From contig CANIFU010000024.1 of the NCBI GenBank assembly GCA_947466965.1, positions 1 through 38,865 on the forward strand: a stretch of DNA of 38,865 nt. The letters are read 5' to 3'. The stretch is from Bacteroidota bacterium (GTDB lineage: Bacteria; Bacteroidota; Bacteroidia; 2-12-FULL-35-15). Made by a program: the position numbers and the translations under genes. Shown here in pieces: positions 21,396 to 36,947 of this stretch (its first letter is position 1; each line of letters begins with the position of its first letter). The notes below the pieces were generated by a model. The model searched no databases. It was given only the letters and a program-made list of their open reading frames with translations, and was not told the DNA's origin.

Positions 21396-22400
21396 TTATA
21401 ACTTAACACCTATAACTAAAATATCATCTGTCTGTTCCATATTTCCTTTCCAGTTTAAATGAAATTCTTTTAAAAACGCTCCTTGTTCTTCCAAATTTTT
21501 ATCCTGAATTGATAACAATGCCTCTTTAAAACGTTTTGTCATCATTTTTTTATCAAGAGAACTAAACTGATCGGCATATCCATCACTTGAAAGATAAAGT
21601 GTATCTCCTTCGTTTAATTGTAAAGTAGTTGATAGAAAAGTTACGGCTTCTTCACGCAGTCCACCAATTGCTGTTTTAGTTGATTTTATTTCAAGAATTT
21701 CTTGTGAGGATTTTTTCACTATCCAAAGTGGTCTGTTTGCACCTGCATATTCAATTATTCTTTTTTCCTTATCAATTATACAAAGACAAATATCCATACC
21801 GTCTCGGGTAGATGTGTCCTGATTGTCTTGCCTCAAAACTGTTCTTACGCTATTATCCAACTCGTTTAATATCTTGCCTGGCTCAACAAAACCTTTTTGT
21901 AAAACAATCTCATCCAAAAGAATATGTCCCACCATGCTCATAAATGCGCCAGGAACTCCATGTCCAGTACAATCAACAGCTGCTAAAAATATTTTTTCGT
22001 CCTTCACATTGAACCAATAAAAATCTCCACTCACTATATCTCTTGGCTGAAAATAAACAAAATATTGAGGAAGAGCTTTACTAATTTCCTGTTCTAAAGG
22101 TAAAATGGCCGACTGAATTCTTTTTGCATAGCTAATACTATCTAACACCTCTTGATGACGCAATTCTACCTCTTGCTTTAATTTATCAACATGTTCTTTT
22201 TCCCGGTGAATGGCTTCACTTTGTTCCCACAGTTTAATATTTCTTTCTTCAATTTTTTTTTTTTCTGTTTCAACATGTTCTTTCTCAACAATCAAATCTT
22301 CCAATTGGGCATCCAATTCCTTCTTCTGTTTTAATATCTTTTCATTCAGCTCCATCAGGAGCTTTTGACGCATAATCGTATTATCCTGTTCTGAACCCAT
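21396..22400 (-). CDS. Cytosolic PP2C/SpoIIE-type protein phosphatase with coiled-coil N-terminus
   Basis: A 334-residue PPM phosphatase of the SpoIIE/RsbU class, which dephosphorylates Ser/Thr on STAS- or SiaC-type partner-switch proteins. Residues about 10-95 are a heptad-rich coiled coil (KILKQKKELDAQ..., VEKEHVETEKKKIEER). The catalytic domain runs from LDSISYAKRIQ to the end, with metal-binding Asp in PRDIVSGDFYWF, DCTGHGVPGAFMS, STRDGMDICL, LYLSSDGYADQF and QTDDILVIG. No membrane segment is present. It is the last gene of the five-gene operon, 2 bases after the lipoprotein gene, so it may be its cytosolic output. Its catalytic domain is a close paralogue of the one in the membrane phosphatase at 30.3 kb. 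Confidence 0.92.
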   Translation of the reverse strand: MGSEQDNTIMRQKLLMELNEKILKQKKELDAQLEDLIVEKEHVETEKKKIEERNIKLWEQSEAIHREKEHVDKLKQEVELRHQEVLDSISYAKRIQSAILPLEQEISKALPQYFVYFQPRDIVSGDFYWFNVKDEKIFLAAVDCTGHGVPGAFMSMVGHILLDEIVLQKGFVEPGKILNELDNSVRTVLRQDNQDTSTRDGMDICLCIIDKEKRIIEYAGANRPLWIVKKSSQEILEIKSTKTAIGGLREEAVTFLSTTLQLNEGDTLYLSSDGYADQFSSLDKKMMTKRFKEALLSIQDKNLEEQGAFLKEFHLNWKGNMEQTDDILVIGVKL

Positions 22401-22402
22401 TT

Positions 22403-23710
22403 TTATTTTAATAAGTTACCTTCTTTATCAACTTTTGCTATAAAGCCCTGAAAAACATTACCACTGCCGTTTGTAAGTTTGTTACCGATCAACAAATATT
22501 CGTTTTCGGTAATTTCCTTGCAATAAGATGAATAAGAAGTCACACTGTTTTTAGGAAATTTAAAGGTTGATATTACACTTCCATTAGGGTCTATTTTTGC
22601 AACGCCTATATAATTTCCAATGGGATGATTTACTGAAGAACTCACTCCTTCTTCTTCATAATATACAAGAAGCTTTTCGTCGGCTGTAACAGTCGAACCA
22701 TTGTATTTTTGGTTTAATTTATCACCATGAAAAACAAAATAGTTCAGCGGACTCAACGTAATATCAAATTTTACAAATCCAAAATGTGAATAGTAATCAT
22801 CCGACATATAACCAACACAAAGAATTTCGTTATTAACGTATTGCAACTCGCTAAAATATCTGCTCATTGAAGAAGGAATATAATCATCTATCTTTTTAGA
22901 TGCAATTAAATTTAAATTTAAATTGTATTTTGATACGTACATACTGTTAGAAAAATTTTGATTTGAATACAGCAAGAATATTTCATCATTCACTATTTTA
23001 ATATCTTTAAAAGAACCATTATTCACTATATTCGAATTATTAATTTTAATAGATTTCACAAAATTAAAATTGAGATCCAGTTTATATATATTCAAAGAAT
23101 CTTTTTTTGTCCCTATCCCGTTTAAATCTTGCCCTAATTCAAAAGCAAAATAATAAAACCCATCATTTTCAACAACCTTTATTCCATCGTAAATGTTGGG
23201 AAAATTGCCAAAATAATTATTCAGAAAAAAACACTTGCGTGTTAAAAACTGGCCTTGTTTATTAAATTTCAGCAAACACAAACTATCAAATTTATAGGAT
23301 GTAGAGAGAATCTTAGAACATTTTAAAGCTGGAATTAAATAATCATTGTTCTCATTTTTAAAAGGATCCCTTCCAATAATACTATAGTCGTATGCTGAAC
23401 TGGACAAAGGTAGAAGCTGAGATTCTGTATACGAATTTTCAGCAAGAAGCTCATTTTCTTCATTAAAATAATGGGTTTTCAGGATAACAAAATAACTAGG
23501 ATCATAGCTTCTTGAAAATGAAACAAAAGAATTGTCATCGTTTATTACAATAGGACGTGATATATGACCAGTAGAGTTATAGCTATAAGTAGGGTCATCG
23601 AATATAAAATTGAAAATTTTCAGATTGGTAAATTCAGGAAGGATGGACTCTTCCTTTTTACAAGAAAACAACAATAAAACGCATACGAGTGAAACGAAAA
23701 TGTTTTTCAT
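22403..23710 (-). CDS. Lipoprotein of unknown function, probably beta-propeller-like
   Basis: 435 residues. The start MKNIFVSLVCVLLLFSCKKEE is a lipoprotein signal peptide with the lipobox LFSC. Lys-Lys after the Cys is compatible with outer-membrane or surface location in Bacteroidota. The rest is beta-rich, with repeated short elements such as LYKLDLNFNFVKSIKI, VSKYNLNLNLIASKKI, FVKFDITLSPLNYFV and FIAKVDKEGNLLK (the K-x-D-x-x-G-N-L pattern), each followed by a strand, suggesting a propeller of 6-7 blades. I cannot assign a family. Its ATG overlaps the stop of the upstream OMP gene by four bases (ATGA) and the phosphatase gene follows after 2 bases, so it belongs to the same translation-coupled unit. 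It may be the outer-membrane sensor or receptor. Confidence 0.8.
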   Translation of the reverse strand: MKNIFVSLVCVLLLFSCKKEESILPEFTNLKIFNFIFDDPTYSYNSTGHISRPIVINDDNSFVSFSRSYDPSYFVILKTHYFNEENELLAENSYTESQLLPLSSSAYDYSIIGRDPFKNENNDYLIPALKCSKILSTSYKFDSLCLLKFNKQGQFLTRKCFFLNNYFGNFPNIYDGIKVVENDGFYYFAFELGQDLNGIGTKKDSLNIYKLDLNFNFVKSIKINNSNIVNNGSFKDIKIVNDEIFLLYSNQNFSNSMYVSKYNLNLNLIASKKIDDYIPSSMSRYFSELQYVNNEILCVGYMSDDYYSHFGFVKFDITLSPLNYFVFHGDKLNQKYNGSTVTADEKLLVYYEEEGVSSSVNHPIGNYIGVAKIDPNGSVISTFKFPKNSVTSYSSYCKEITENEYLLIGNKLTNGSGNVFQGFIAKVDKEGNLLK

Positions 23711-24843
23711 TTTTGTGAAATTTTGTTGTAAATATAATTTGAAAGAATAAAATTAATTGAAAATTTTATAATGTGGTTGTAATTTTTAAAATTTCTATCG
23801 ATATAAAATGATTTCAGCATTAGGTCTTCTTCCAATACAAAATTGCCATTATTTGTTGACAATGTCGTATATTCATAAGCGTAATTCAATGAAAGAGAAA
23901 TAGAGTTATTAATTTTATAATCAACGCCAATAAGCGGTTTAATAAACATTAAGGATTTCCTTCTGTTTTCGGTTGTATTTACATCTATTTTTTCAAGTGC
24001 ATATTGATCTGTTATGTTCAATGAATTAGAATTAGAGACTGAATATACCAATGAAGGATAGTTATAAGTAATTTTTGAATTGGAAAAACTTAGACTTTTA
24101 AATAATCCAACTAAACCAATATATGGAGAGAATTTTTTAAAGATGAAATGTTTTGTCAGCTCGATGCCTGCTGTATAATAATTATCTTGTTCGTTCAATT
24201 CCGAATAATAGTCTGCATTTGTTTTGTATGCAATTCTTCTTTTAAAAAACAAATCTTGAGTCCCGAGACATACACCTAACCTGACATTTTTATACACATT
24301 GTATTGCCCCCAAATACCATATCCTCTAGAAAAACCAACGGCTTGATAAGAAGTTTCATAATTAAAATCGGAATTAACTGTATTGAACGTTCCTGTGTTT
24401 TTTAATATAGGAGAAATTGCCTCGAAATAAACACTAAAAGTTATTTTAGGAATGATTTGATAATGATTAAATGTTTGGATATACATTTCCTCCACCCTGT
24501 TGTTATTAGGTTTATAATTAGGAAATCTTTTCAATAATTTTCTAAATACAGTATCCGCTCCCATAACTTTATCCGTTTCTAGTTGAGTACGGATAAGCAA
24601 TTCATAAGCATCCTGCTTACCTATTTTACTTAATTTGCATTCTCCCAAAATCTCATTGAGCAATTTTTCAGTTTCAAAATACAATCCGCCAGCATATAAG
24701 TTCTGAGCTTCTTCTAATTTTTTATCGCATTCAATCGTCCTTTTAACTACTTTTGTTGACTTACTATCCTCTTGAGAATAAGCAGCTGAATAAATCATAA
24801 AGAATAATACCAGAAGATGAGCTATTTTAAAGTGCGTCTTCAT
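23707..24843 (-). CDS. Exported TPR plus outer-membrane beta-barrel protein
   Basis: 378 residues. A signal peptide (IAHLLVLFFMIYSAAYSQ) is followed by a helical, TPR-like region (residues about 35-135, with LEEAQNLYAGGLYFETEKLLNEIL, FRKLLKRFPNY and a Cys-rich start), then by a long run of amphipathic strands (about 140-378) rich in Tyr, Phe and Asn: VGFSRGYGIWGQYNVYKNVRLGVCLGTQ, FSPYIGLVGLFKSL, SLSLNYAYEYTTL, HIIKFSINFIL. This is the look of an 8-12-strand outer-membrane barrel. The TPR part would lie in the periplasm and could touch the nSTAND1 propeller. It overlaps its neighbours by four bases on both sides. No named family. Confidence 0.78.
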   Translation of the reverse strand: MKTHFKIAHLLVLFFMIYSAAYSQEDSKSTKVVKRTIECDKKLEEAQNLYAGGLYFETEKLLNEILGECKLSKIGKQDAYELLIRTQLETDKVMGADTVFRKLLKRFPNYKPNNNRVEEMYIQTFNHYQIIPKITFSVYFEAISPILKNTGTFNTVNSDFNYETSYQAVGFSRGYGIWGQYNVYKNVRLGVCLGTQDLFFKRRIAYKTNADYYSELNEQDNYYTAGIELTKHFIFKKFSPYIGLVGLFKSLSFSNSKITYNYPSLVYSVSNSNSLNITDQYALEKIDVNTTENRRKSLMFIKPLIGVDYKINNSISLSLNYAYEYTTLSTNNGNFVLEEDLMLKSFYIDRNFKNYNHIIKFSINFILSNYIYNKISQK

Positions 24844-27800
24844 TTTTTACAATTTAAAGGTTTGAATTCCACATCATCGCCAAAATATTTTTTCCACTCT
24901 TCAGTACTTAGATCTCGATTTATTTTAGAACATAATTCGTTATAAACAGTATAGGAATTTGAATGAAATTCTCTAATGGTAAGATCCGACAGTGTCACAT
25001 AAATATTACCATCACTATCTGCATAAACAGATCTGACGTGAGTTCCAAAGGCAACAGAGATTGGTTTTCCCGAAGCACGACTGCAATCTACCATCCAGAT
25101 TTTATTATCGGAACTTATAGCGGACAATACAGCACTTTTTTCGTTAAAAGAAAGTTTTTTAATAATTGATTTAGAGACCTTGTATTCATTTTTAGTTACA
25201 AGCATATTATCCTGAAATGAAAATTTAATAATTTTACCGTTTGAGAAGCCGGCAAAAACAATATTTCCTGAATTATCGGCTTCAAGTGAATATGGAAGCT
25301 GTTTTTGTTTATCATTATAATATACTAGTTTTTTTTCTCCGCTACTTGATATATGATATATATTACCCTTCGTTGTTCCGATCAAACATTCTCTCTTATT
25401 TAAAGCAGTAAAAGAAATAACATCTTCCTTTAATTCAACTACCTTTTCTGGAGTTCTAACTTTTTTATTATAAAAAGAGATCATACCACTTTTTGTAACT
25501 AAAAGAAACTTTTCTCCGTCATTAATAGCCATCCCTCCTCTTAATGCACCTCCCAATTTTTCAAAACGGCCCAATAGAGTTACATTACTTTCAGATAAAG
25601 CGAACCCAGACACAATCCCCGAGTTATTTTCAGTAAACAACGTCATTGCTTTTTGCTCAACGAACATATTTTCTATCAAACCATTATTTTTAATTATCGT
25701 TTCATTTGTAATTATGTTTCCTTCTTTTTTTTGTTTGTTCCATTGGTAAATATTAGCATCCGATCCTAATGAAAATAGCTTTCCATTTGCTTCAAAAATT
25801 ACAGATTGTTCAACCAAAGCTCTTTTGTTAAAATTAAAGCAATCCTTACCATTTAAATAATAATTCGCCTGTATCAAACCATTATAAATAATGGGATCCC
25901 AAGCTTCGCCATTTACCTCTTTATGCAAATCCAAAGCGTGCATTGCAAATAAAGCCGAAAGCTGTATTTCCTCAAATTTGTCTGCAGACATATATGCGAT
26001 TTGCTGAGAAAGTGCTTTTGAGGAAAGTACTTTTGTTTTTAATTCTGAATTCAAAGCTTTTTCTTTTGCACTTTCTGCAATTTTGGTTTGTTTAATTGCA
26101 TTTTCCGCTTCATTGCTTGCACGTTTTGCTTCTTCTTTCGCAAGTGTTGATTTACTTATGGCTAGTATTGTAGCTTGTTGAGCAATATTTTTTTGAGCAA
26201 TTGCGTCTTTTGCGAATTTTTCAGTTTCCTGTTTCGCTTTTAGTGCCTCCTGTTCATTCTTCTGAGCTTTTTCTTTTGCCTTCTCGGCCTCATCTTTTGA
26301 TAACAAAGCCAAAGACTTAGAATTTTCGGATTCTATTCTTTTTTGTTCAGCAAACTCTTGCTGGCTTGCGGCAAAATTTTTCTGATTGAATGCCCAAAAG
26401 GTTAGTCCAGATAAAACAAGCATTATCAAAACTGAAAGAGTGACAAGAACTTTATTTTTTCTCTTTTTTACTTTTTCAATATTATTCAGAAATTGTCTGC
26501 TTTCTTTTATGTAAACATTAATATTATCGATCTTACTCTTTGCTTTATTAAATTTCTGTTCAAGCAAATCAGTGCTTTCATCATATTTAACAAGCCAATG
26601 TTCATTAATAAAAGACTTTTCATACCATGTTTCGAATTGCTCTAATGGGCCTAGTGGAAGTAAAAAATTATCTGACTTATTACTTTCTTCCCATCTTAGC
26701 AACTGTTTATTAAAATCAATGAAATCATTTAAATTTTGAGCATCCTCTTCCGACCACATTCTTAGTTTTTCCCAATTACGAATCAATGCCTCATGTGTAA
26801 TGTCTATAACAGCGTCAACATTTAATATCTCCTGCTGGCTGATAAAAGGATTCAAAAGTGTGTTACCAGGTTCACGGTATCTTCTTAGCAGACTATCCAA
26901 TTCAACTATACCAATATCTTTATTGTTAATGTTTCCTAGTAAATCTTTTACACTCGAACGGTGACGAACAGAACGGCCTTCATTAATCTTTGTAAGAGTC
27001 TGAAAGGAACGTTTCAAAGCAAAATACAAAGTATCTTCAGAAATATCACTTTTATTATTCTTTTTAAACTCTGCTATAGAATCCTGCATTAATTCATCAG
27101 CATGCGCATTAATAATATTTTGTAAAGAAGGATTTTTAAAATGAGCTTTTTTGGATTGCGGAATTTTTTCAAAAAAAACACCAAACCTATTTCGGTCAGA
27201 TTCTGAAAGTTCAACCGGATCGATTCCTCCGGCCATTGCTAAATGAATCAACCCCATTTCTTCCTCATTCTCCATTGCAATATTCCAAATTCTATTCAGT
27301 GCATGCTGAATGATCGGTAATTGATCGGTTCCATCAGTTGCAGCAGATGTTAAATAATTAACCAATTGATCAGAAATAGAATTGCCATTTAACAGAGCTG
27401 GTTCCAAAATAATTTTTTCAATTTCTTCACGATTCAATCTGGGAATAAAAAAATGACTGAATCCTACTAGTTCCGGTAAGCCACGAAATGCAGGACTATT
27501 CCCAATAAAATCGGAACGCATTGTAAAGACAATATAGATCGGGAGTTTTTCTTCATTCGCGATTCTTATTGTTTCCACAAGTAAATTTAAAACCACTTCC
27601 GCTTCAAGAGTAGGCTCATTCTTAAAAAAATTCTCATTGTTCGTAAAAAACTCTTCAAACTGATCAACAAGAATAAATAAGTTAGCTGCTTTTGATCTCT
27701 TTAATTTTTTTTCATCTAGTGAAAGATTTTTCCAATCCTGACTTTCATTATTAGTGTGAAATTCACTTTTTTTATAGAGTTCTACAATCGAGGAAAATCC

Positions 27801-28136
27801 AAATGAGAGGTCTTCATAAACTGTGTTTACAGGTAATTTGAAAATTTCCGCAAGTGATTTAGAAAGATTGAATAAAGGCCGGTCTTCCGGTTTGATTATT
27901 GAAAATCGCCATGAATTATAAGTTGCTTTAATAAATCCAGCTTTTATATTAGGAATAACACCGGCATAAACAATAGATGACTTACCATCCCCAGAGGCAC
28001 CCGTAATCATTACAAAGCGGTTCTTCTCAAGTTGCCCTATTATATCATCAATGTTTTTTTCCCTCCCTTTAAAAAAGATAGATTCTTTTTCATCAAAAGG
28101 TCTAAGACCAGGATATGGACATAATTCAATTTCCAT
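24840..28136 (-). CDS. nSTAND1 NTPase with transmembrane helix, coiled coil and C-terminal propeller
   Basis: A 1098-residue STAND ATPase. ELCPYPGLRPFDEKESIFFKGRE is the hallmark N-terminus of nSTAND1 proteins. Walker A GASGDGKSS (46-54), Walker B LFILVDQFEEFF (153-164) and sensor-like MRSDF (206-210) follow. A winged-helix/helical region runs to about 540, with ITHEALIRNWEKLRMW at 446-461. A hydrophobic segment KVLVTLSVLIMLVLSGLTFWAF (563-584) is a transmembrane helix, then a long Ala/Lys/Glu coiled coil (585-705), a STAND-WD40-typical helical linker (FEEIQLSALFAMHALDL) and a beta-propeller (about 765-1085). With basic KKRKNK before the helix, the ATPase is cytosolic and the propeller periplasmic. 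It sits 3 bases from the TIR-like gene and overlaps the OMP gene. Confidence 0.9.
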   Translation of the reverse strand: MEIELCPYPGLRPFDEKESIFFKGREKNIDDIIGQLEKNRFVMITGASGDGKSSIVYAGVIPNIKAGFIKATYNSWRFSIIKPEDRPLFNLSKSLAEIFKLPVNTVYEDLSFGFSSIVELYKKSEFHTNNESQDWKNLSLDEKKLKRSKAANLFILVDQFEEFFTNNENFFKNEPTLEAEVVLNLLVETIRIANEEKLPIYIVFTMRSDFIGNSPAFRGLPELVGFSHFFIPRLNREEIEKIILEPALLNGNSISDQLVNYLTSAATDGTDQLPIIQHALNRIWNIAMENEEEMGLIHLAMAGGIDPVELSESDRNRFGVFFEKIPQSKKAHFKNPSLQNIINAHADELMQDSIAEFKKNNKSDISEDTLYFALKRSFQTLTKINEGRSVRHRSSVKDLLGNINNKDIGIVELDSLLRRYREPGNTLLNPFISQQEILNVDAVIDITHEALIRNWEKLRMWSEEDAQNLNDFIDFNKQLLRWEESNKSDNFLLPLGPLEQFETWYEKSFINEHWLVKYDESTDLLEQKFNKAKSKIDNINVYIKESRQFLNNIEKVKKRKNKVLVTLSVLIMLVLSGLTFWAFNQKNFAASQQEFAEQKRIESENSKSLALLSKDEAEKAKEKAQKNEQEALKAKQETEKFAKDAIAQKNIAQQATILAISKSTLAKEEAKRASNEAENAIKQTKIAESAKEKALNSELKTKVLSSKALSQQIAYMSADKFEEIQLSALFAMHALDLHKEVNGEAWDPIIYNGLIQANYYLNGKDCFNFNKRALVEQSVIFEANGKLFSLGSDANIYQWNKQKKEGNIITNETIIKNNGLIENMFVEQKAMTLFTENNSGIVSGFALSESNVTLLGRFEKLGGALRGGMAINDGEKFLLVTKSGMISFYNKKVRTPEKVVELKEDVISFTALNKRECLIGTTKGNIYHISSSGEKKLVYYNDKQKQLPYSLEADNSGNIVFAGFSNGKIIKFSFQDNMLVTKNEYKVSKSIIKKLSFNEKSAVLSAISSDNKIWMVDCSRASGKPISVAFGTHVRSVYADSDGNIYVTLSDLTIREFHSNSYTVYNELCSKINRDLSTEEWKKYFGDDVEFKPLNCKK

Positions 28137-28139
28137 AGT

Positions 28140-28985
28140 TTAATTTATGGTTATTTTTTCAAAAAACATTTTTATTTCTAATCCTGCTAGCGTGTCTTCT
28201 GTAAACAGCTTATAAATATTGGGAACTTCGAGCGAAACTTGATCGGGAGATGTAAACTCTTTATCAAATATTGTTAAAATAGGAACATTGGAAGAAACGC
28301 CACCTATTATTTTCCATACTTGTTGAGAAAAGTTTACCGCCCATTCTGTTGAATTTTTGGAATAAACCACACATAAAGTAGAATTTAAAATACTTTCTGA
28401 ACAGAGAGAAGCATAATTTATTTCAGTTGAAAAGTCGATGTAGATCGGATTTATTTTTAATATATTGTCAATTATTAGCTGAACATCTCCAGCCTTTTTT
28501 TTGTCGTTCTCATTGCAAATAAATGTAATATCATAAAGCTTTTCACTCTTCTTTTCTTCTTTGAATAACTTCATGCTCCTCAAATCATCAACAAGTTTAA
28601 TAAGAGAAGAATAGGATATAAAATGTTGATTGAAAATAAGTCGTTTTAAATTTTCAATTACTTTGAATTCGCCTTTGCCTTTTAAAACTTCAATCAATTC
28701 CTTTGAGCACCATACAATTGTATGCTTTTTAGAGAGCAAATCGGCATATTCATTAAGGGAATCAATTCCTTGAAAAATCTTTTTATTTTTGTTATCAAGT
28801 ATTTCAGAAGTGATAACGTTCAAAACAATATCTGAACTTTGAATTAGCTCAGACCTTTGGTTATCAGAAAAATCATCCGTTGGGTTGACAACTTCCATTC
28901 CTGCACGATGAATAATTCCGACCATTTTTTTTCTAAAATCTAAATTAGACTCAGGAAGCCTTGATAAAAAGATCTTTCTATGCAC
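28140..28985 (-). CDS. Double TIR-like/DUF4062-like protein partnering nSTAND1
   Basis: A 281-residue cytosolic protein starting at GTG. The N-terminal half (KIFLSRLPESNLDFRKKMVGIIHRAGMEVVNP, then SELIQSSDIVLNVI and GIDSLNEYADLL) follows the strand-helix order of the DUF4062/TIR-like domains that accompany nSTAND1 NTPases. The C-terminal half (ITFICNENDKKKAGDVQLIIDNIL, ESILNSTLCVVYSKNSTEWAVNFSQQ) resembles a second TIR-like domain. The Glu usually found after the W-C/A-x-x position for NADase activity is not seen, so it may be a scaffold or receptor adaptor, not a NAD-degrading enzyme. It is the first gene of the five-gene operon. Divergent promoters with the T9SS cargo gene lie upstream. Assignment is by pattern and context. 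Confidence 0.7.
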   Translation of the reverse strand: MHRKIFLSRLPESNLDFRKKMVGIIHRAGMEVVNPTDDFSDNQRSELIQSSDIVLNVITSEILDNKNKKIFQGIDSLNEYADLLSKKHTIVWCSKELIEVLKGKGEFKVIENLKRLIFNQHFISYSSLIKLVDDLRSMKLFKEEKKSEKLYDITFICNENDKKKAGDVQLIIDNILKINPIYIDFSTEINYASLCSESILNSTLCVVYSKNSTEWAVNFSQQVWKIIGGVSSNVPILTIFDKEFTSPDQVSLEVPNIYKLFTEDTLAGLEIKMFFEKITIN

Positions 28986-30277: not shown

Positions 30278-32431
30278 TTACACCCTTACCCCTATTACCA
30301 ATATATCATCCGTCTGCTCCATATTCCCTTTCCATTCATCAATAAAAGAACCCAGGTATTCCTTTTGTTCTTCCATTGTTTTATTCTGAATGGATAATAA
30401 AATGTCCTTAAATTTTCTTGTCATTAATTTTTTGTCCTGCGGACTAAATTGATCGGCATAACCGTCTGAAAAAAGGTAGATTGTATCCCCTTTCTGAAGA
30501 TTGATAGAATGCTTTACAAACTCCTGGCTATCTTCTGTTAATCCACCTATAGCTACCTTTGTTGCTTTAAACTCCTCTATCTCATGTTGATCTTTACGAA
30601 TAATCAAAAGTGGGCGGTTGGCGCCTGCATACTCCAACTGTGTCAGCTCTTTATTGAAAGCACAAAGCGATACATCCATTCCGTCTCGGGTTGAATTTAT
30701 TTTATCTGTCTGGCGCAATACTTTTTTCATTCCTCGATTTACCAGATTTAAAATAACTGAAACATCAGAGCTATCTTTAATCGCCTCATTCAACTTTTCA
30801 GAACCTATGGTGCTCATAAAAGCACCCGGAACACCATGGCCGGTACAATCACATGCTGCAATCAATATTGTATTATCTCTTTCTGAAAACCAATAAAAAT
30901 CGCCTGCAACAATATCTTTTGGTTTAAATAAAATGAATGAATTTGGAAGTGCTGAAGAAACTTCAGCTAAAGGAGGAAGTAATGCATTTTGAATTCGTTG
31001 GGCATAACTGATTGAATCTAGTATTTCTTTTTGTTTTTCTTCAACTAAATTTTTTTGATCTTCTACTTCTGTTTTTTGACTTTCAATAATTTCTTTTTGC
31101 TTTAACAATGTATTATTTATTTGTTTCCTTAGATAATTACTTCGCAAAACAAAAAACACTAACATAAGAAAAACCATAATAATAAGTATGAAATAAACAA
31201 TAGTTTGCTTATTATCGCTTAACTCAGAATCTTTGGCATTCAGTAATTCCATACCTTTTTCATTTTCACTTTTCAACTTCACTATTTCCTCTTGCTTTTT
31301 TACAGCATCATATTTTGAATTAAGATTTGTTATTTGACTAAACAATGCAGTATTTAAATCTTTATTACCCGAATTTATAATGTCGGTCAATGCTTGATAT
31401 TCAGCATTTTTAATTTCGTATTGAATATTCGTAAGCGTATTAAAAACATATAATAAAGGCATATAATTAAAATTAGTTATCTCCCAACTAACGGGCTGGC
31501 CTTCTTCTCCCGAATAATTATCTGTACTTAAATTCAATCCCTCTTGTATAATAGTACGATTTTGTTCTTGAATTAAACTTAATAATGTATCTCTGAAATT
31601 GTTTATAACTGATTTTAATTTTGAGGCAGAGTATTTGTCTTTATTGAGATTATATTCATTACCAATTAAAATTTTTGTTGTAAGATCCAAATTTACTTTG
31701 TTTTCTATAAATAAAGAAGATAGTGTGTCTGCTTGTGTTTTTGGAATTTTATCTATAATGACTAATAGATGTGATTTTAAATCTTTAATATGAATTATTG
31801 CAGAATCGGCAGCAGTTTTTAATTTAGTGGCTCTGATTAAAATATCATTGTTTTTATCTATGCCTATTTTGTATAAAGTACCATACAATTGTTTATTTCT
31901 TGAAGAAGCTGTTCTAAGTGCCTCCTCGGTATTTACTCCTTGTTGCAGCACAGTGTCTATATTGATTCTGCCACTTCCCGAATTTAAAAGTGCACTAATT
32001 GTATGCACAAAAAAATAGATTACTAGCAAAATATTATGAGAAACTATTAAATTTTTCTTTCGCAATAAGGCTAAATGATAGAGCGAAAAAGGAACAATTA
32101 TAAATAAAAGGATATAATTATTGATAATGTAAAAAAATCCGGCACCAGGCCAATGCATTATTAAAAATGTTAAACCAATTGCAAAAAGCAGTAAAATAAT
32201 AGTTTGGAGAAGTAATACTAGCTTCGATCTTTTTGTTTCTTTTGTTTTCCAACTTTCTATAGCAAATAATGGCATATAAAAGAAAGTAAAGATAAACGTA
32301 CCAAACATTATTAAAATTGAGGCGCCAGGCCAATGTTGAATTTTAAAGAACTCTCCTAATAATGTAGGAATTATTAAAATCCAAACGATAACATTTAATG
32401 TTTTGGATGGTTTAATTTCGTTTAAGCCCAT
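30278..32431 (-). CDS. Membrane PP2C/SpoIIE phosphatase with GldL/GldM-like sensor region
   Basis: 717 residues. Five predicted membrane helices (about 12-28, 38-60, 70-90, 99-122, 128-150) are followed by a periplasmic domain (about 153-405), a sixth helix (409-430), a coiled coil (435-470) and a PP2C domain (471-717; GDFYWF, DCTGHGVPGAFMS, STRDGMDVSL, FSDGYADQF, QTDDILVIGV). Motif HWPGA after helices 1 and 3 (residues 33-37 and 93-97, both preceded by a Phe-Lys-Ile-Gln or Ile-Met element) matches the GldL/PorL hairpin. The periplasmic domain, with SWEITNF, MPLLYVFNTLTNIQ and EIKNAE (315-344), matches the first domain of GldM/PorM. Odd helix number puts the sensor outside and the phosphatase inside. 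The likely substrate is SiaC or a similar anti-anti-factor. Confidence 0.85.
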   Translation of the reverse strand: MGLNEIKPSKTLNVIVWILIIPTLLGEFFKIQHWPGASILIMFGTFIFTFFYMPLFAIESWKTKETKRSKLVLLLQTIILLLFAIGLTFLIMHWPGAGFFYIINNYILLFIIVPFSLYHLALLRKKNLIVSHNILLVIYFFVHTISALLNSGSGRINIDTVLQQGVNTEEALRTASSRNKQLYGTLYKIGIDKNNDILIRATKLKTAADSAIIHIKDLKSHLLVIIDKIPKTQADTLSSLFIENKVNLDLTTKILIGNEYNLNKDKYSASKLKSVINNFRDTLLSLIQEQNRTIIQEGLNLSTDNYSGEEGQPVSWEITNFNYMPLLYVFNTLTNIQYEIKNAEYQALTDIINSGNKDLNTALFSQITNLNSKYDAVKKQEEIVKLKSENEKGMELLNAKDSELSDNKQTIVYFILIIMVFLMLVFFVLRSNYLRKQINNTLLKQKEIIESQKTEVEDQKNLVEEKQKEILDSISYAQRIQNALLPPLAEVSSALPNSFILFKPKDIVAGDFYWFSERDNTILIAACDCTGHGVPGAFMSTIGSEKLNEAIKDSSDVSVILNLVNRGMKKVLRQTDKINSTRDGMDVSLCAFNKELTQLEYAGANRPLLIIRKDQHEIEEFKATKVAIGGLTEDSQEFVKHSINLQKGDTIYLFSDGYADQFSPQDKKLMTRKFKDILLSIQNKTMEEQKEYLGSFIDEWKGNMEQTDDILVIGVRV

Positions 32432-32503: not shown

Positions 32504-32530
32504 TAAAAAATAATAATCAATTTCTTGATT
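32504..32530 (-). terminator. Possible weak terminator after the ABC transporter gene
   Basis: On the minus strand, AATCAA-GAAA-TTGATT forms a 6-pair hairpin with a stable tetraloop, beginning in the stop codon and followed by ATTATTTTTT. It is AT-only, so the evidence is weak. The 98-base gap to the phosphatase gene allows separate transcription. Confidence 0.3.
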
Positions 32531-35500
32531 TATTTCCTCTTCCTTAAAAACAGTTCAGTCAAATTCGAAGACAACTTCAAAAGTTTCTTAAGGCCGTCAA
32601 AATATAAAGTCAGCCATAAAAATAGTGTCATGCCCCATATAACAAGGATATTCACCCAATATGTACTATAAGCTTTACCAAAAAAACTTTTTGTAGGAGC
32701 AAAAAAGTGTGATCGGATAAGCTCATCACTGGATCCATCTCTAAAAATGGGATTAGCCGTTGCGATCAGTTTACCATCTTCTACAATCACTTCATCCAAA
32801 TCTGAACCAACATTTTTTACAAGTTCCTCCAGTTTCTCATTTTGTGAGCTGCTCATCAGGTTTTCATAACGAACTTTACCTGCTTCGGTTTCCTGAAACT
32901 TTGCCATCCACATATCTTTGCTCTTCACTGCAGCATCATAATTTTCAGCATAGATTTTTTTTAAGATTGTTAAATAGTCTTTGGTTTCATTTGCTGTATT
33001 TATATCAAAGGCTGTTAAGTTAAAATTACCTATTGCAGAAAAACTAATAGCGGGAAAGGTTTTCATTTCTCTTACTATTTCTTTTTTTAATATCTCAAGA
33101 TTCGCAGCTGCATTTTTAGATTTCTCGTTACATTCATCAATCAATTCATTCATTTTAGAAAACCAGTAGACTTTTTTATATGAATTATAACTGATGGCTT
33201 TATCAAAGGCATAAATATTTTTTTCATACTCATTTTCCATAAACTGATTCACTGCCAATGCCTCAAATGCCCACCTAGAAGTCATTACATCACCCCATAC
33301 AGGCACTACCGAATTGCTAGAAATTTCAGGATTTAACTCCTCAAATTTCACGATAACCCCACTTAACAATATCTGAGGAATCAATAAAAATGGAATAAGA
33401 ACATAAATTGTAACAGCTGAATTAAAGGAAGCTGAAATGTTAAGACCTAACATATTCGCAAAACAAGAAGTGGTAAACAACACCAACCAGTAATCGAAAT
33501 ACATACCTTTAATTTCTAGAATGTAATTACCAATCAAGACAAACATAACCGTTTGTATTGAGGAGATAAAAAACTGAATCATAATTTTTGAAGTAAGATA
33601 ACTCCCTTTACTCAAATTCAAAAAAGATTCACGTTTCAATATTTTCCGATCTCGGATAATTTCTTCGGCACTTACCGTCAAACCAATAAACAATGCCACA
33701 AGTACACACATAAATAAATAAGCGGGCATATTTTTATTATTCGACAACATATAACCTTTATCCGAATGATAATATTTGATAAGGGAAGCCAATATCAATG
33801 CCAATATAGGTGCTTCAAACAAAGTGATAGAGAGGTATTGGGCATTCGACAATTTGGACAATACATCTCTCGTTGTGAATACGTTAAATTGTTTTAAGAA
33901 ATTTGGTTTTCTAAAGGTGTTTTTAATCGGACGTTTTTCATCAGCGTGGGAAGCATTTGGGTCTATTGCTAATTTCGAAGTGTAAAACTCATTCCATTCT
34001 TTTGAAGAAATCCTTCTGTTTCTTGTTTGATTGCCATTTTCATCCAATACCTTAGATTCAATAATATTAAAGATCTGTTCAGGATTCACATTCCCACAAG
34101 CATTACATTCGCTTTCATTCGCATTCACCTGATTAATGATGGTTTTGAAGTACACTACTGATTCAACAGGATTTCCGTTATAAATAGGATAACCACCCAC
34201 ATCGAGTAATAAAAGCTTATCAAACATTTTAAAAATGTCGGAGGAGGGCTGATGAATAACAACAAAAACCAATTTACCCTTTAAAGCCAGTTCTTTCAGC
34301 AAATCCATTATATTTTCTGAGTCACGTGACGACAAACCCGAAGTTGGTTCATCAACAAATAAAACAGATGGTTCACGGATTAATTCAAGCGCAATATTCA
34401 ATCTTTTTCTTTGTCCGCCACTTATTGTCTGATCCAAGGGATTGCCTACTCTCAAATCCTTCGTTTCCAATAATCCCAGATCACTAAGCATATCTAAAAC
34501 CAGTTGATGAAGTTGGGCCTTCTCCATTCCATCGAAACACAATTTGGAATTATAAAAGAGATTTTGGTATACAGTAAGCTCTTCAATCAAAAGGTCATCT
34601 TGAGGAATATAACCAATTACCCCTTCAAGCATTTTCTTTTCGTGATGAAGATTATGGCCATTCACCAAAACCTCACCGGAGGAAGGAGCATTATTACCGT
34701 TCAAAATATTCAGCAGGGTGGATTTACCAGCACCACTTCCACCCATGATACCAATTAGTTTACCTGAATTCTCAGTAAAATTCAATGGTCGTAAACCAAC
34801 TTTGCCACTTTTAAATTTATACTCTAGATTTTTAACTGCAAAAATAAATTTATCTTCAGAAGCATCTTTTAAAAAACAACTAACAATATCACTATAATAA
34901 ATAGGTTGCACCTTAGAGCTTCTGATGGATGATCCTTGTGATAAAATATAAATTGTATGCTGATTGATAATCTGTCCGTTTAAAAACAATTCGGTTTTAC
35001 CAAAGTAGCGTATAAGGTAGATTCCAATGCTGTTTACACGCAGCACTGCTAGATCACCCGAAATAGAATCAGATTGGAAAAATTTGGTATTTACTTTGGA
35101 TTCATTTTTTTGTTTACCTGCAATTAAAAATTCAGGCACATCATCAATTTCAGCGGTTATTCCTTTTGTAGCTAGTTGAATACATTGATTTAATTCTTCA
35201 TTAGGGATATTAAAGGAAGAAGAAACAGTCTCAACAAATTCCATATCCTGATCAGAAATTGAATTATTGAAATTAACAAACTCTATAAGATTCAAAAGAA
35301 CAATGTATTTCTGTTTCTGAGTCAACTCTTCATTAATCTGTTCGCAGATAACAATAACTTTAACTGAACTGACAGCCAAGCGTCTTTTTTTCTTTTCTCC
35401 ATCGGCTCCTTCGTTTTGTTGTTTGAGAAAATCTTCGTAAACAGCAAGATATTCATTTACCTGTTCCTTGTTGAGTTGTTGTTTCAAGTATGATTCAACA

Positions 35501-35586
35501 ACATTCGTTGCGTTGGATGAACTTTCATCAGCCTTTGCAATAATTGCAAACAGGCGCATTAAGGCTTTCAGTATTTTCTCACTCAT
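32530..35586 (-). CDS. ABCG-type ABC transporter with N-terminal TerB-like and FHA-like regions
   Basis: A 1018-residue single-chain half-transporter. Residues 1-140 are helical and resemble TerB/DjlA-like tellurite-resistance modules (LMRLFAIIAKADE, ISDQDMEFVETVSSSFNIPNEE). Residues 165-245 form a beta-rich FHA-like strip (NGQIINQHTIYILSQGSSIRS). The ABC domain (245-480) has Walker A GGSGAGKST (282-290), Q-loop Gln329, signature ISGGQRKRLNIALELI (388-403), Walker B LFVDEPTSGL (409-418) and the H-loop VIHQPS (443-448), in the ABCG/White order. A CNAC cluster near residue 493 and six or seven membrane helices (about 580-800, 980-1005) follow, with a large extracytoplasmic insert (about 800-980). 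Substrate unknown. It belongs to the SiaC locus. Confidence 0.88.
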   Translation of the reverse strand: MSEKILKALMRLFAIIAKADESSSNATNVVESYLKQQLNKEQVNEYLAVYEDFLKQQNEGADGEKKKRRLAVSSVKVIVICEQINEELTQKQKYIVLLNLIEFVNFNNSISDQDMEFVETVSSSFNIPNEELNQCIQLATKGITAEIDDVPEFLIAGKQKNESKVNTKFFQSDSISGDLAVLRVNSIGIYLIRYFGKTELFLNGQIINQHTIYILSQGSSIRSSKVQPIYYSDIVSCFLKDASEDKFIFAVKNLEYKFKSGKVGLRPLNFTENSGKLIGIMGGSGAGKSTLLNILNGNNAPSSGEVLVNGHNLHHEKKMLEGVIGYIPQDDLLIEELTVYQNLFYNSKLCFDGMEKAQLHQLVLDMLSDLGLLETKDLRVGNPLDQTISGGQRKRLNIALELIREPSVLFVDEPTSGLSSRDSENIMDLLKELALKGKLVFVVIHQPSSDIFKMFDKLLLLDVGGYPIYNGNPVESVVYFKTIINQVNANESECNACGNVNPEQIFNIIESKVLDENGNQTRNRRISSKEWNEFYTSKLAIDPNASHADEKRPIKNTFRKPNFLKQFNVFTTRDVLSKLSNAQYLSITLFEAPILALILASLIKYYHSDKGYMLSNNKNMPAYLFMCVLVALFIGLTVSAEEIIRDRKILKRESFLNLSKGSYLTSKIMIQFFISSIQTVMFVLIGNYILEIKGMYFDYWLVLFTTSCFANMLGLNISASFNSAVTIYVLIPFLLIPQILLSGVIVKFEELNPEISSNSVVPVWGDVMTSRWAFEALAVNQFMENEYEKNIYAFDKAISYNSYKKVYWFSKMNELIDECNEKSKNAAANLEILKKEIVREMKTFPAISFSAIGNFNLTAFDINTANETKDYLTILKKIYAENYDAAVKSKDMWMAKFQETEAGKVRYENLMSSSQNEKLEELVKNVGSDLDEVIVEDGKLIATANPIFRDGSSDELIRSHFFAPTKSFFGKAYSTYWVNILVIWGMTLFLWLTLYFDGLKKLLKLSSNLTELFLRKRK

Positions 35587-35682: not shown

Positions 35683-36525
35683 TTAGTTTATGATTTTTGA
35701 TCTTGCTTCGCCTAATTTTGAATGTAATTTCTGAAGCAAAGCAGCATCTACTTCTCCATTTTTTATACTTGAATATAATTTATCCAGTTCAGAAATAGCG
35801 GAAATAACAGCTTTAAAATCTTTTTCTTTTTCGTATTCTTTTAAAAGTTCAACCAATTTCTGAGAAGTAAAATTTTGTTGAGCTACTTTTTGAAATAAAA
35901 CTTCATTGTCTTTGTTTTTTGCCTGATCCTTAATCAATGAAACGGTGATGAACTGACTTTCTACCCAACTTCCAACCAATATTTGTGTTGCAGTCAATAA
36001 ACGGTCATTCGATCGAAGATATCCATCCATTTCAGTGTAAATCTGATCGATCACTTTATTGATGGTATCTTTTTTATCAATGTTGTTTTCTAATCTCGAA
36101 CCTGCTATATTATCAAAGCTTTCAGCACATCCAAGACTTTGAGCAAGATTTCTAGACGTTTTAAAATACGTTTTCACTTCAGAAAATTGCTCATTCGTTG
36201 ATAAGTATACAAGATCAACTATGTATGCACCATAATTCAGACCTTTTTTTGTAGTAGTCGTGTATTTCGTTTCATTTTCGGCAGCGTTTACAAGGCTCTT
36301 ATTGAAGGGCAGTCCTGCTTTTGGTAAAAAAGTAATAATCTCTAATGGAGAAGGGACATTGATTACAAGAACATGAAATTGGAAGTCCGCCAGATCATTT
36401 GTAGGTTGAGTCTGAACTTCTTTTTTAACAGTGTCGGGTTTAACGTCGGCTGTTTCAGGTTTAGATGAATTTCCACCGCAAGACACTAATAAAGCAGCAA
36501 AAGAAAGAGTAATTAATTTTTTCAT
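35683..36525 (-). CDS. Lipoprotein of unknown function in the SiaC locus
   Basis: 280 residues. MKKLITLSFAALLVSCGGNSS is a lipoprotein signal peptide with lipobox LVSC followed by Gly-Gly. A Pro/Lys/Thr linker (about 25-45) leads into a mainly alpha-helical domain (45-280) with segments IVDLVYLSTNEQFSEVKTYFKTSRNLAQSLG and VESQFITVSLIKDQAKNK. I cannot name a family. The 32-base spacing to the siaC stop and shared strand suggest co-transcription. An extracytoplasmic lipoprotein next to a partner-switch module could sense an envelope state, but that is inference. Confidence 0.7.
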   Translation of the reverse strand: MKKLITLSFAALLVSCGGNSSKPETADVKPDTVKKEVQTQPTNDLADFQFHVLVINVPSPLEIITFLPKAGLPFNKSLVNAAENETKYTTTTKKGLNYGAYIVDLVYLSTNEQFSEVKTYFKTSRNLAQSLGCAESFDNIAGSRLENNIDKKDTINKVIDQIYTEMDGYLRSNDRLLTATQILVGSWVESQFITVSLIKDQAKNKDNEVLFQKVAQQNFTSQKLVELLKEYEKEKDFKAVISAISELDKLYSSIKNGEVDAALLQKLHSKLGEARSKIIN

Positions 36526-36557: not shown

Positions 36558-36947
36558 CTATTTTGTAAATGAAACGATATTAAAGGGCATTTTAATGATG
36601 GATTGATAATCCTCTCCCGCTTCCAACATATCATCATCCTGATCATCATAAAGCCAGTTAATCAATGCTTCGCCTTTACCATTTTTAGTTATTTGTTCTA
36701 ACTTTTTAAAAAGGTCGACAATACACTTTGACGAACTGGTATTAAAATAATCCAATTGAATATTCAATGTTGTTTTAGGTGCAGGATTTTGAATGTAATT
36801 ATCCAACCAATCAAACAATGGTTTGTAGAACGAAATAGAATTTTCGGGGATTGATTTACCTTTCAAGTCAAAAACACCTGTTGTTCCATCAAAGTTAACA
36901 ATAGGTGTTTTTGCTGATTGTTCAGCTTTAAATGAGTTTTCTGCCAT
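36558..36947 (-). CDS. siaC: SiaC-family regulatory phosphoprotein (DUF1987)
   Basis: 129 residues with the complete SiaC/DUF1987 pattern: KTPIVNFDGTTGVFDLKGKSIPENSISFYKPLFDWLDNYI (residues 13-52), LNIQLDYFNTSSSKCIVDLFKKLEQI (61-86) and the acidic INWLYDDQDDDMLEAGEDYQ near the end. In Pseudomonas, SiaC is phosphorylated by SiaB and dephosphorylated by the PP2C phosphatase SiaA, and its phospho-site lies in the FNTSS segment (Thr70-Ser73 here). In this window two SpoIIE-type phosphatases are present but no SiaB-type kinase or SiaD-type GGDEF. Gene order suggests it is the first gene of a unit ending with the GldL/M-like phosphatase. Confidence 0.88.
   Translation of the reverse strand: MAENSFKAEQSAKTPIVNFDGTTGVFDLKGKSIPENSISFYKPLFDWLDNYIQNPAPKTTLNIQLDYFNTSSSKCIVDLFKKLEQITKNGKGEALINWLYDDQDDDMLEAGEDYQSIIKMPFNIVSFTK

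Follow-up and report, generated by a model that had tools for sequence, protein, structure and literature searches.

The 38,865-nucleotide stretch of DNA analysed here (the window) encodes, on its reverse strand (30278..32431), a membrane enzyme of 717 residues, P0001, in which a sensing half made from duplicated pieces of the GldL/GldM motor is fused to a protein phosphatase. P0001 is probably a transmembrane sensor-phosphatase with a non-motor, GldL/GldM-derived input half and with phosphorylated SiaC as its likely substrate. SiaA/RsbU-like transmembrane phosphatases are an already known kind, but the open-access papers searched describe none whose input derives from a rotary motor, nor did the open-access literature yield a relevant paper on a link between GldLM and a phosphatase or between GldL and PadR. 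If the reading is correct, it would be the first case found in that literature in which parts of a rotary motor have been recruited as the input of a signalling protein, and in Bacteroidota it might connect the envelope machinery of T9SS and gliding with partner switching of the SiaC type. The isolate names of the metagenome-assembled genomes holding the G025 and G006 copies suggest that the host is a freshwater member of the Bacteroidota.

Domain architecture of P0001

The fusion protein is defined by its open reading frame, whose boundaries in the initial annotation proved exact, by its Pfam matches and by a family of 11 members; all its parts are given here on the reverse strand. The chain begins with two GldL-type hairpins, the first of which (residues 10-62; 32246..32404) consists of two transmembrane helices with the motif FKIQHWPGA, while the second spans residues 67-122 (32066..32233). 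Two HWPGA motifs are present as previously reported, each between two hydrophobic helices and 60 residues apart, at residues 33-37 (32321..32335), in a predicted periplasmic turn, and at residues 93-97 (32141..32155). A fifth helix, TM5 (residues 128-150; 31982..32050), aligns with the transmembrane helix of GldM by hhalign and by fold, and is followed by GldM domain 1 (D1, residues 155-355; 31367..31969), a periplasmic domain recognised by Pfam (PF12081) and by its VIA Z score. A long helix (residues 357-405; 31217..31363) replaces GldM domains 2-4 and runs from D1 to the membrane, which is crossed by TM6 (residues 406-430; 31142..31216; hydropathy peak 3.35). The cytoplasmic part comprises a helical linker (residues 431-485; 30977..31141), with the conserved stretch ...EEKQKEILDSISYAQRIQ, and an SpoIIE/SiaA-type PP2C domain (residues 486-717; 30281..30976) with intact catalytic motifs.

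Helices are predicted at residues 10-31, 37-62, 67-91, 97-122 and 128-150, together with a long helix at 357-439 that includes TM6, and K/R-rich loops are found at residues 60-70 and 122-128 and after TM6. The positive-inside rule would assign these loops to the cytoplasm, and hence the two HWPGA turns and the region 153-405 to the periplasm, in agreement with the periplasmic domain of about 250 residues (~153 to 405) that had been proposed to follow the fifth helix.

Homology with GldL and GldM

Three Pfam families meet in this single protein: GldM_1st (56.9 bits, E 3.7e-15, gathering score 25), SpoIIE (PF07228, 77.9 bits, E 1.3e-21), as expected from the fusion to an SpoIIE-type PP2C put forward in the initial annotation, and GldL_N (23.0 bits, E 9.4e-5). 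The GldL_N match of P0001 lies one bit below the gathering score of 24; that score is exceeded by the G480 orthologue (29.8) and by P0002 (37.5), a paralogue encoded in the same genome as P0001. Judging from the family profiles, the hairpin pair is a true duplication, as had been claimed, since the profiles of hairpin 1 and hairpin 2 align over their full length (hhalign 99.6%, 55 columns, E 8e-25).

A profile built on 13 fused proteins matched genuine GldM from inside the transmembrane helix onward (E ~1e-35) and genuine GldL across the HWPGA region (E ~3e-9). Profile-profile alignment of P0001 with GldM spans residues 133-355, starting within TM5 (99.8%, E 2.6e-30), and each hairpin matches GldL at about 98%. 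The motifs SWEITNF, PLLYVFNTLTNIQ and IKNAE, previously noticed as standing in the GldM order, are all present and aligned in order with GldM. A PDB profile search returned GldM 7sau (E 2e-18) and GldL 7sau_C (E 0.001).

Furthermore, all the top Foldseek matches of the AlphaFold models of P0001 are GldM/PorM. Superposition of residues 130-355 on the GldM chain of the GldL-GldM structure (7sau_B) gave a VIA Z of 22.1 with 208 aligned residues at 2.9 A, the best unrelated chain reaching Z 8.5-8.8. A bias introduced by the GldM rows of the alignment was considered and rejected, a second model from an alignment devoid of any GldM sequence being in agreement (Z 21.7, 182 aligned, 2.1 A). Taken alone, the transmembrane part resembles unrelated helical proteins to a middling degree only, with Z reaching about 9. 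Pfam and profile-profile evidence agree on the four GldL-like helices in two hairpins, and Pfam, hhalign, the PDB profile and the predicted fold on the GldM-like helix with domain 1; neither of the outcomes named beforehand as contrary to this anatomy, a lack of GldL or GldM matches and a different fold, occurred.

P0001 is nonetheless distinct from GldL and GldM (PorL and PorM). What is common to them is the transmembrane hairpin of GldL with FKxxHWPGA, that is, a K-x-x-HWPGA element, and the GldM transmembrane helix plus periplasmic domain 1 in the same predicted fold. The differences are that two hairpins and the GldM helix with D1 stand in one chain, that the motor glutamate and the long cytoplasmic tail of GldL are missing (the hairpins are followed by short loops only), that GldM_1st is the sole GldM domain found by Pfam, domains 2-4 being absent, and that the gene lies outside the gldKLMN operon. 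The score of P0001 against the NCBIfam GldM model TIGR03517 is 38 bits, the cut-off being 180. The N-terminal arginine R9 is invariant in genuine GldM, and the alignment of the fused proteins is gapped just after that place.

Absence of the motor glutamate

In GldL, E49 (Fj) of TMH2 is strictly conserved and essential for the motor, and the conformation of GldM depends on GldL and on the proton gradient (PMC8986121). The position equivalent to E49 is occupied in P0001 by F in hairpin 1 and by L in hairpin 2, and is hydrophobic in every fused hairpin examined: it is acidic in none of 68 first and 64 second hairpins (counts in which some genes recur as truncated copies), versus 10 of 10 aligned genuine GldL. 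The lysine preceding HWPGA is K/R in 66/66 first hairpins. As for the membrane Glu, Arg and Lys residues, whose check was suggested in the initial annotation, K30 alone among the charged residues of the membrane part is invariant in the 11 phosphatase members, and no acidic residue is conserved there.

It had been proposed that a motor module serves in the fusion as a sensor of force, proton flow or secretion state; the sensing of proton flow by a working motor is not supported. The dependence of GldM on GldL and the proton gradient would favour a small motor driven by protons, or a sensor of PMF, whose D1 is moved as protons pass through the GldL-like helices. Such a device is highly improbable given the residues just described, and a working proton motor was rejected because of the missing glutamate. 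Moreover, whereas the 5:2 ion-driven rotary motors are made of separate pentameric and dimeric subunits, rotor and stator are here a single chain; the covalent link between stator and axle would exclude continuous rotation, and a dimer would provide at most four hairpins, versus five GldL. Domain 1 dimerises in GldM, and P0001 may likewise be dimeric.

The phosphatase domain and the link with SiaC

The closest PDB sequence to the PP2C domain is SiaA (6k4e, E 3.3e-36), and residues D511, D528, D656, D708 and D709 are invariant in 11/11 members. Against the SiaA equivalog NF038263, P0001 scores 169 bits, over the PP2C part only and with a cut-off of 700. In Pseudomonas, SiaC is phosphorylated by SiaB, and SiaA removes the phosphate at T68 (PMC7647112). 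P0001 resembles the SiaABCD system in its homologous PP2C domain, in the SiaC homologue of its gene cluster and in the SiaB kinases encoded elsewhere in the host genome, and differs from it in having an unrelated input domain and no adjoining SiaB. With SpoIIE/RsbU-type transmembrane PP2C proteins it has in common the arrangement of sensor, helical linker and PP2C, and is set apart by a sensor derived from a rotary motor; a survey of bacterial PP2C domains makes no mention of a Gld domain (PMC12088040).

P0001 belongs to a same-strand run of SiaC, lipoprotein, ABC transporter and phosphatase genes. Ending 98 nt upstream of it on the reverse strand is the gene of an ABC transporter (32530..35586) with a TerB-like N-terminal region, below cut-off, and an ABCG-type ATPase-permease; next come, also in reverse orientation, a predicted lipoprotein of 280 residues with an LVSCGG lipobox (35683..36525) and a SiaC-family regulatory phosphoprotein (36558..36947; PF09345, 147.8 bits), the proposed substrate, which matches 6kko (E 5.7e-15) with the NTSS phosphosite motif aligned. 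The order SiaC-lipoprotein-ABC-PP2C is kept in three genomes (the window, G025 and G006), and the phosphatase gene of G004 is directly preceded by two SiaC genes. No SiaC was seen beside the phosphatase gene in G480, G549, G574, G729, G664 or the G028 stretch read, and the G709 contig is too short to show such a neighbour. SiaC is thus the likely substrate in the clade of the window; it may be specific to this clade or, in the other families, be encoded at another locus. The host genome holds 18 SpoIIE genes, which makes the specificity of the phosphatase uncertain.

As for the mechanism, D1 would most likely respond to altered conditions in the envelope or periplasm. A conformational, non-rotary change may then travel down the helix 357-439, through TM6 and the cytoplasmic linker, to the PP2C domain, which would be switched by analogy with SpoIIE/SiaA-type phosphatases. 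The output would be the dephosphorylation of the SiaC encoded in the same cluster, to be rephosphorylated by the SiaB kinases, so that the likely pathway leads from an envelope signal through the GldLM-derived sensor and the PP2C domain to SiaC.

On contig C10 of the same genome, a paralogue of the ABC transporter (55% identical) has SiaC, SiaB and two SpoIIE genes as its neighbours. This recurring ABC-SiaC-SpoIIE linkage suggests that the transporter is an effector. At this locus (L235, C10:16000-30000), where the TerB/ABC transporter paralogue is found, one neighbouring SpoIIE phosphatase has a beta-propeller sensor.

Two further arrangements were observed. In the host genome, some 10 kb separate a SiaB-SiaC pair (C1:64470-65334) from gldKLMN (gldL at C1:51947), which may be chance. 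Within the window, the reverse strand also carries at 21396-28985 a run of genes for a 281-residue protein, an nSTAND1-WD40 NTPase, two unknown proteins and a short SpoIIE phosphatase; the 281-residue protein has no confident family match and the run no PADLOC match, and in G006 the phosphatase end of such a run adjoins SiaC.

Distribution of the module in Bacteroidia

The phosphatase form is found in 11 genomes of 5 families (the window, G025, G006, G004, G028, G480, G549, G574, G709, G729 and G664), with members 34-91% identical to P0001, so that the fusion architecture is maintained. A one-off assembly artefact was rejected, there being full-length members in 10 other genomes.

The host genome contains a second copy of the module, P0002 (contig C93, 417 residues), made of an N-terminal domain of 80 residues, two hairpins, TM5 and D1. 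The GldL2-GldM1 module is common to both proteins; unlike in P0001, the output in the P0002 family is the 80-residue LLDHICCxIE domain, and the gene lies beside a PadR regulator gene or, as for P0002 itself, overlaps it. The module occurs more often behind this small PadR-linked domain than in the phosphatase form: this type accounts for about 39 different ORFs in the loci read that lie within ~90 nt of a same-strand PadR gene or overlap it. The label HAAS was tried for the N-terminal domain and is unconfirmed, 14 members giving no HAAS match and no convincing match to any other Pfam family. Free-standing GldL2-GldM1 proteins of about 350 residues are also present. In many Bacteroidia, motor parts have become what looks like a signalling module, which occurs across the class with several outputs (PP2C, PadR-linked domain, free-standing). 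The 11 phosphatase members and the tens of PadR-linked ones form a defined family for studying what GldM domain 1 senses or passes on.

A double-hairpin profile matches 109/395 class-level genomes and 53/196 genera, only part of the 109 having D1. The full profile gave almost no matches in a phylum-wide search at E 1e-25 with five candidates scored per genome.

In a tree of TM5 and D1, the fused modules stand apart from GldM (97/98), save one three-hairpin protein on a long branch, which falls with GldM. This PadR-linked protein (L214, 1910-3349, reverse strand) has three overlapping hairpin matches and D1, and its placement may reflect a second recruitment, perhaps, or a long-branch error. 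Eight phosphatase members from four families group with one free-standing protein (98/95). Beyond this core, a single origin of the phosphatase fusion is neither established nor rejected (p-AU 0.15).

Helical sensors are often partly structural, and no ligand is known for this one, so the GldL/GldM-like half could serve as a mere membrane anchor and dimerisation scaffold, with activity set by expression or by cytoplasmic partners. This is improbable, since the module is kept with different outputs, and K30, W316 and E344 are invariant in its 32-member alignment, which is unexpected for a mere anchor.

Relation to the T9SS/gliding motor

P0001 could also watch the real T9SS/gliding motor, its D1 or hairpins pairing with GldM or GldL and the phosphatase reporting the state of assembly or secretion. 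Such related parts might assemble together, a complete GldLM is encoded in the genome, and contact between a regulator and the motor has a precedent in PorX, which binds PorL (PMC5005315). However, the target of PorX is the cytoplasmic tail of PorL, which is missing in P0001, and no association with GldM domain 4 is visible, this domain being found in 37/40 module-bearing versus 34/40 module-free genomes. GldM_4th was not detected in G480 (95% complete, phosphatase form) nor in G685 (100% complete, double-hairpin module), misses that may be due to fragmentation or divergence. With GldM_4th present nearly everywhere in the sample, co-occurrence does not bear on T9SS sensing. That P0001 watches the motor is rather unlikely. 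The broader proposal, that Bacteroidia turned the GldLM motor into a general, non-rotary envelope sensor with several outputs, reporting on the real T9SS/gliding motor by co-assembly, is likewise doubtful. The preferred reading remains a non-motor sensor of the envelope or periplasm.

Other proteins with HWPGA-type hairpins

Several genomes of the genus encode free-standing membrane proteins of 215-279 residues (L050, L051, L052, L054, L056 and L057), in which tandem HxPGA hairpins, three at most, are the sole recognised feature. In three genomes, HWPGA-type hairpins are joined to the phosphatase linker helix in proteins (L202, 1273-2052, reverse strand; L055, 3778-4614, and L053, 3776-4516, both forward) that stop right where the PP2C domain should start (RIQxSLLPT), and which might be split or adaptor halves. 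Finally, two PP2C phosphatases (L063, 3593-4954, reverse strand; L215, 2683-4044, forward) have HWPGA hairpins without GldM domain 1, and in G014, to which L063 belongs, the hairpin-PP2C gene comes directly after the same ABC transporter gene.
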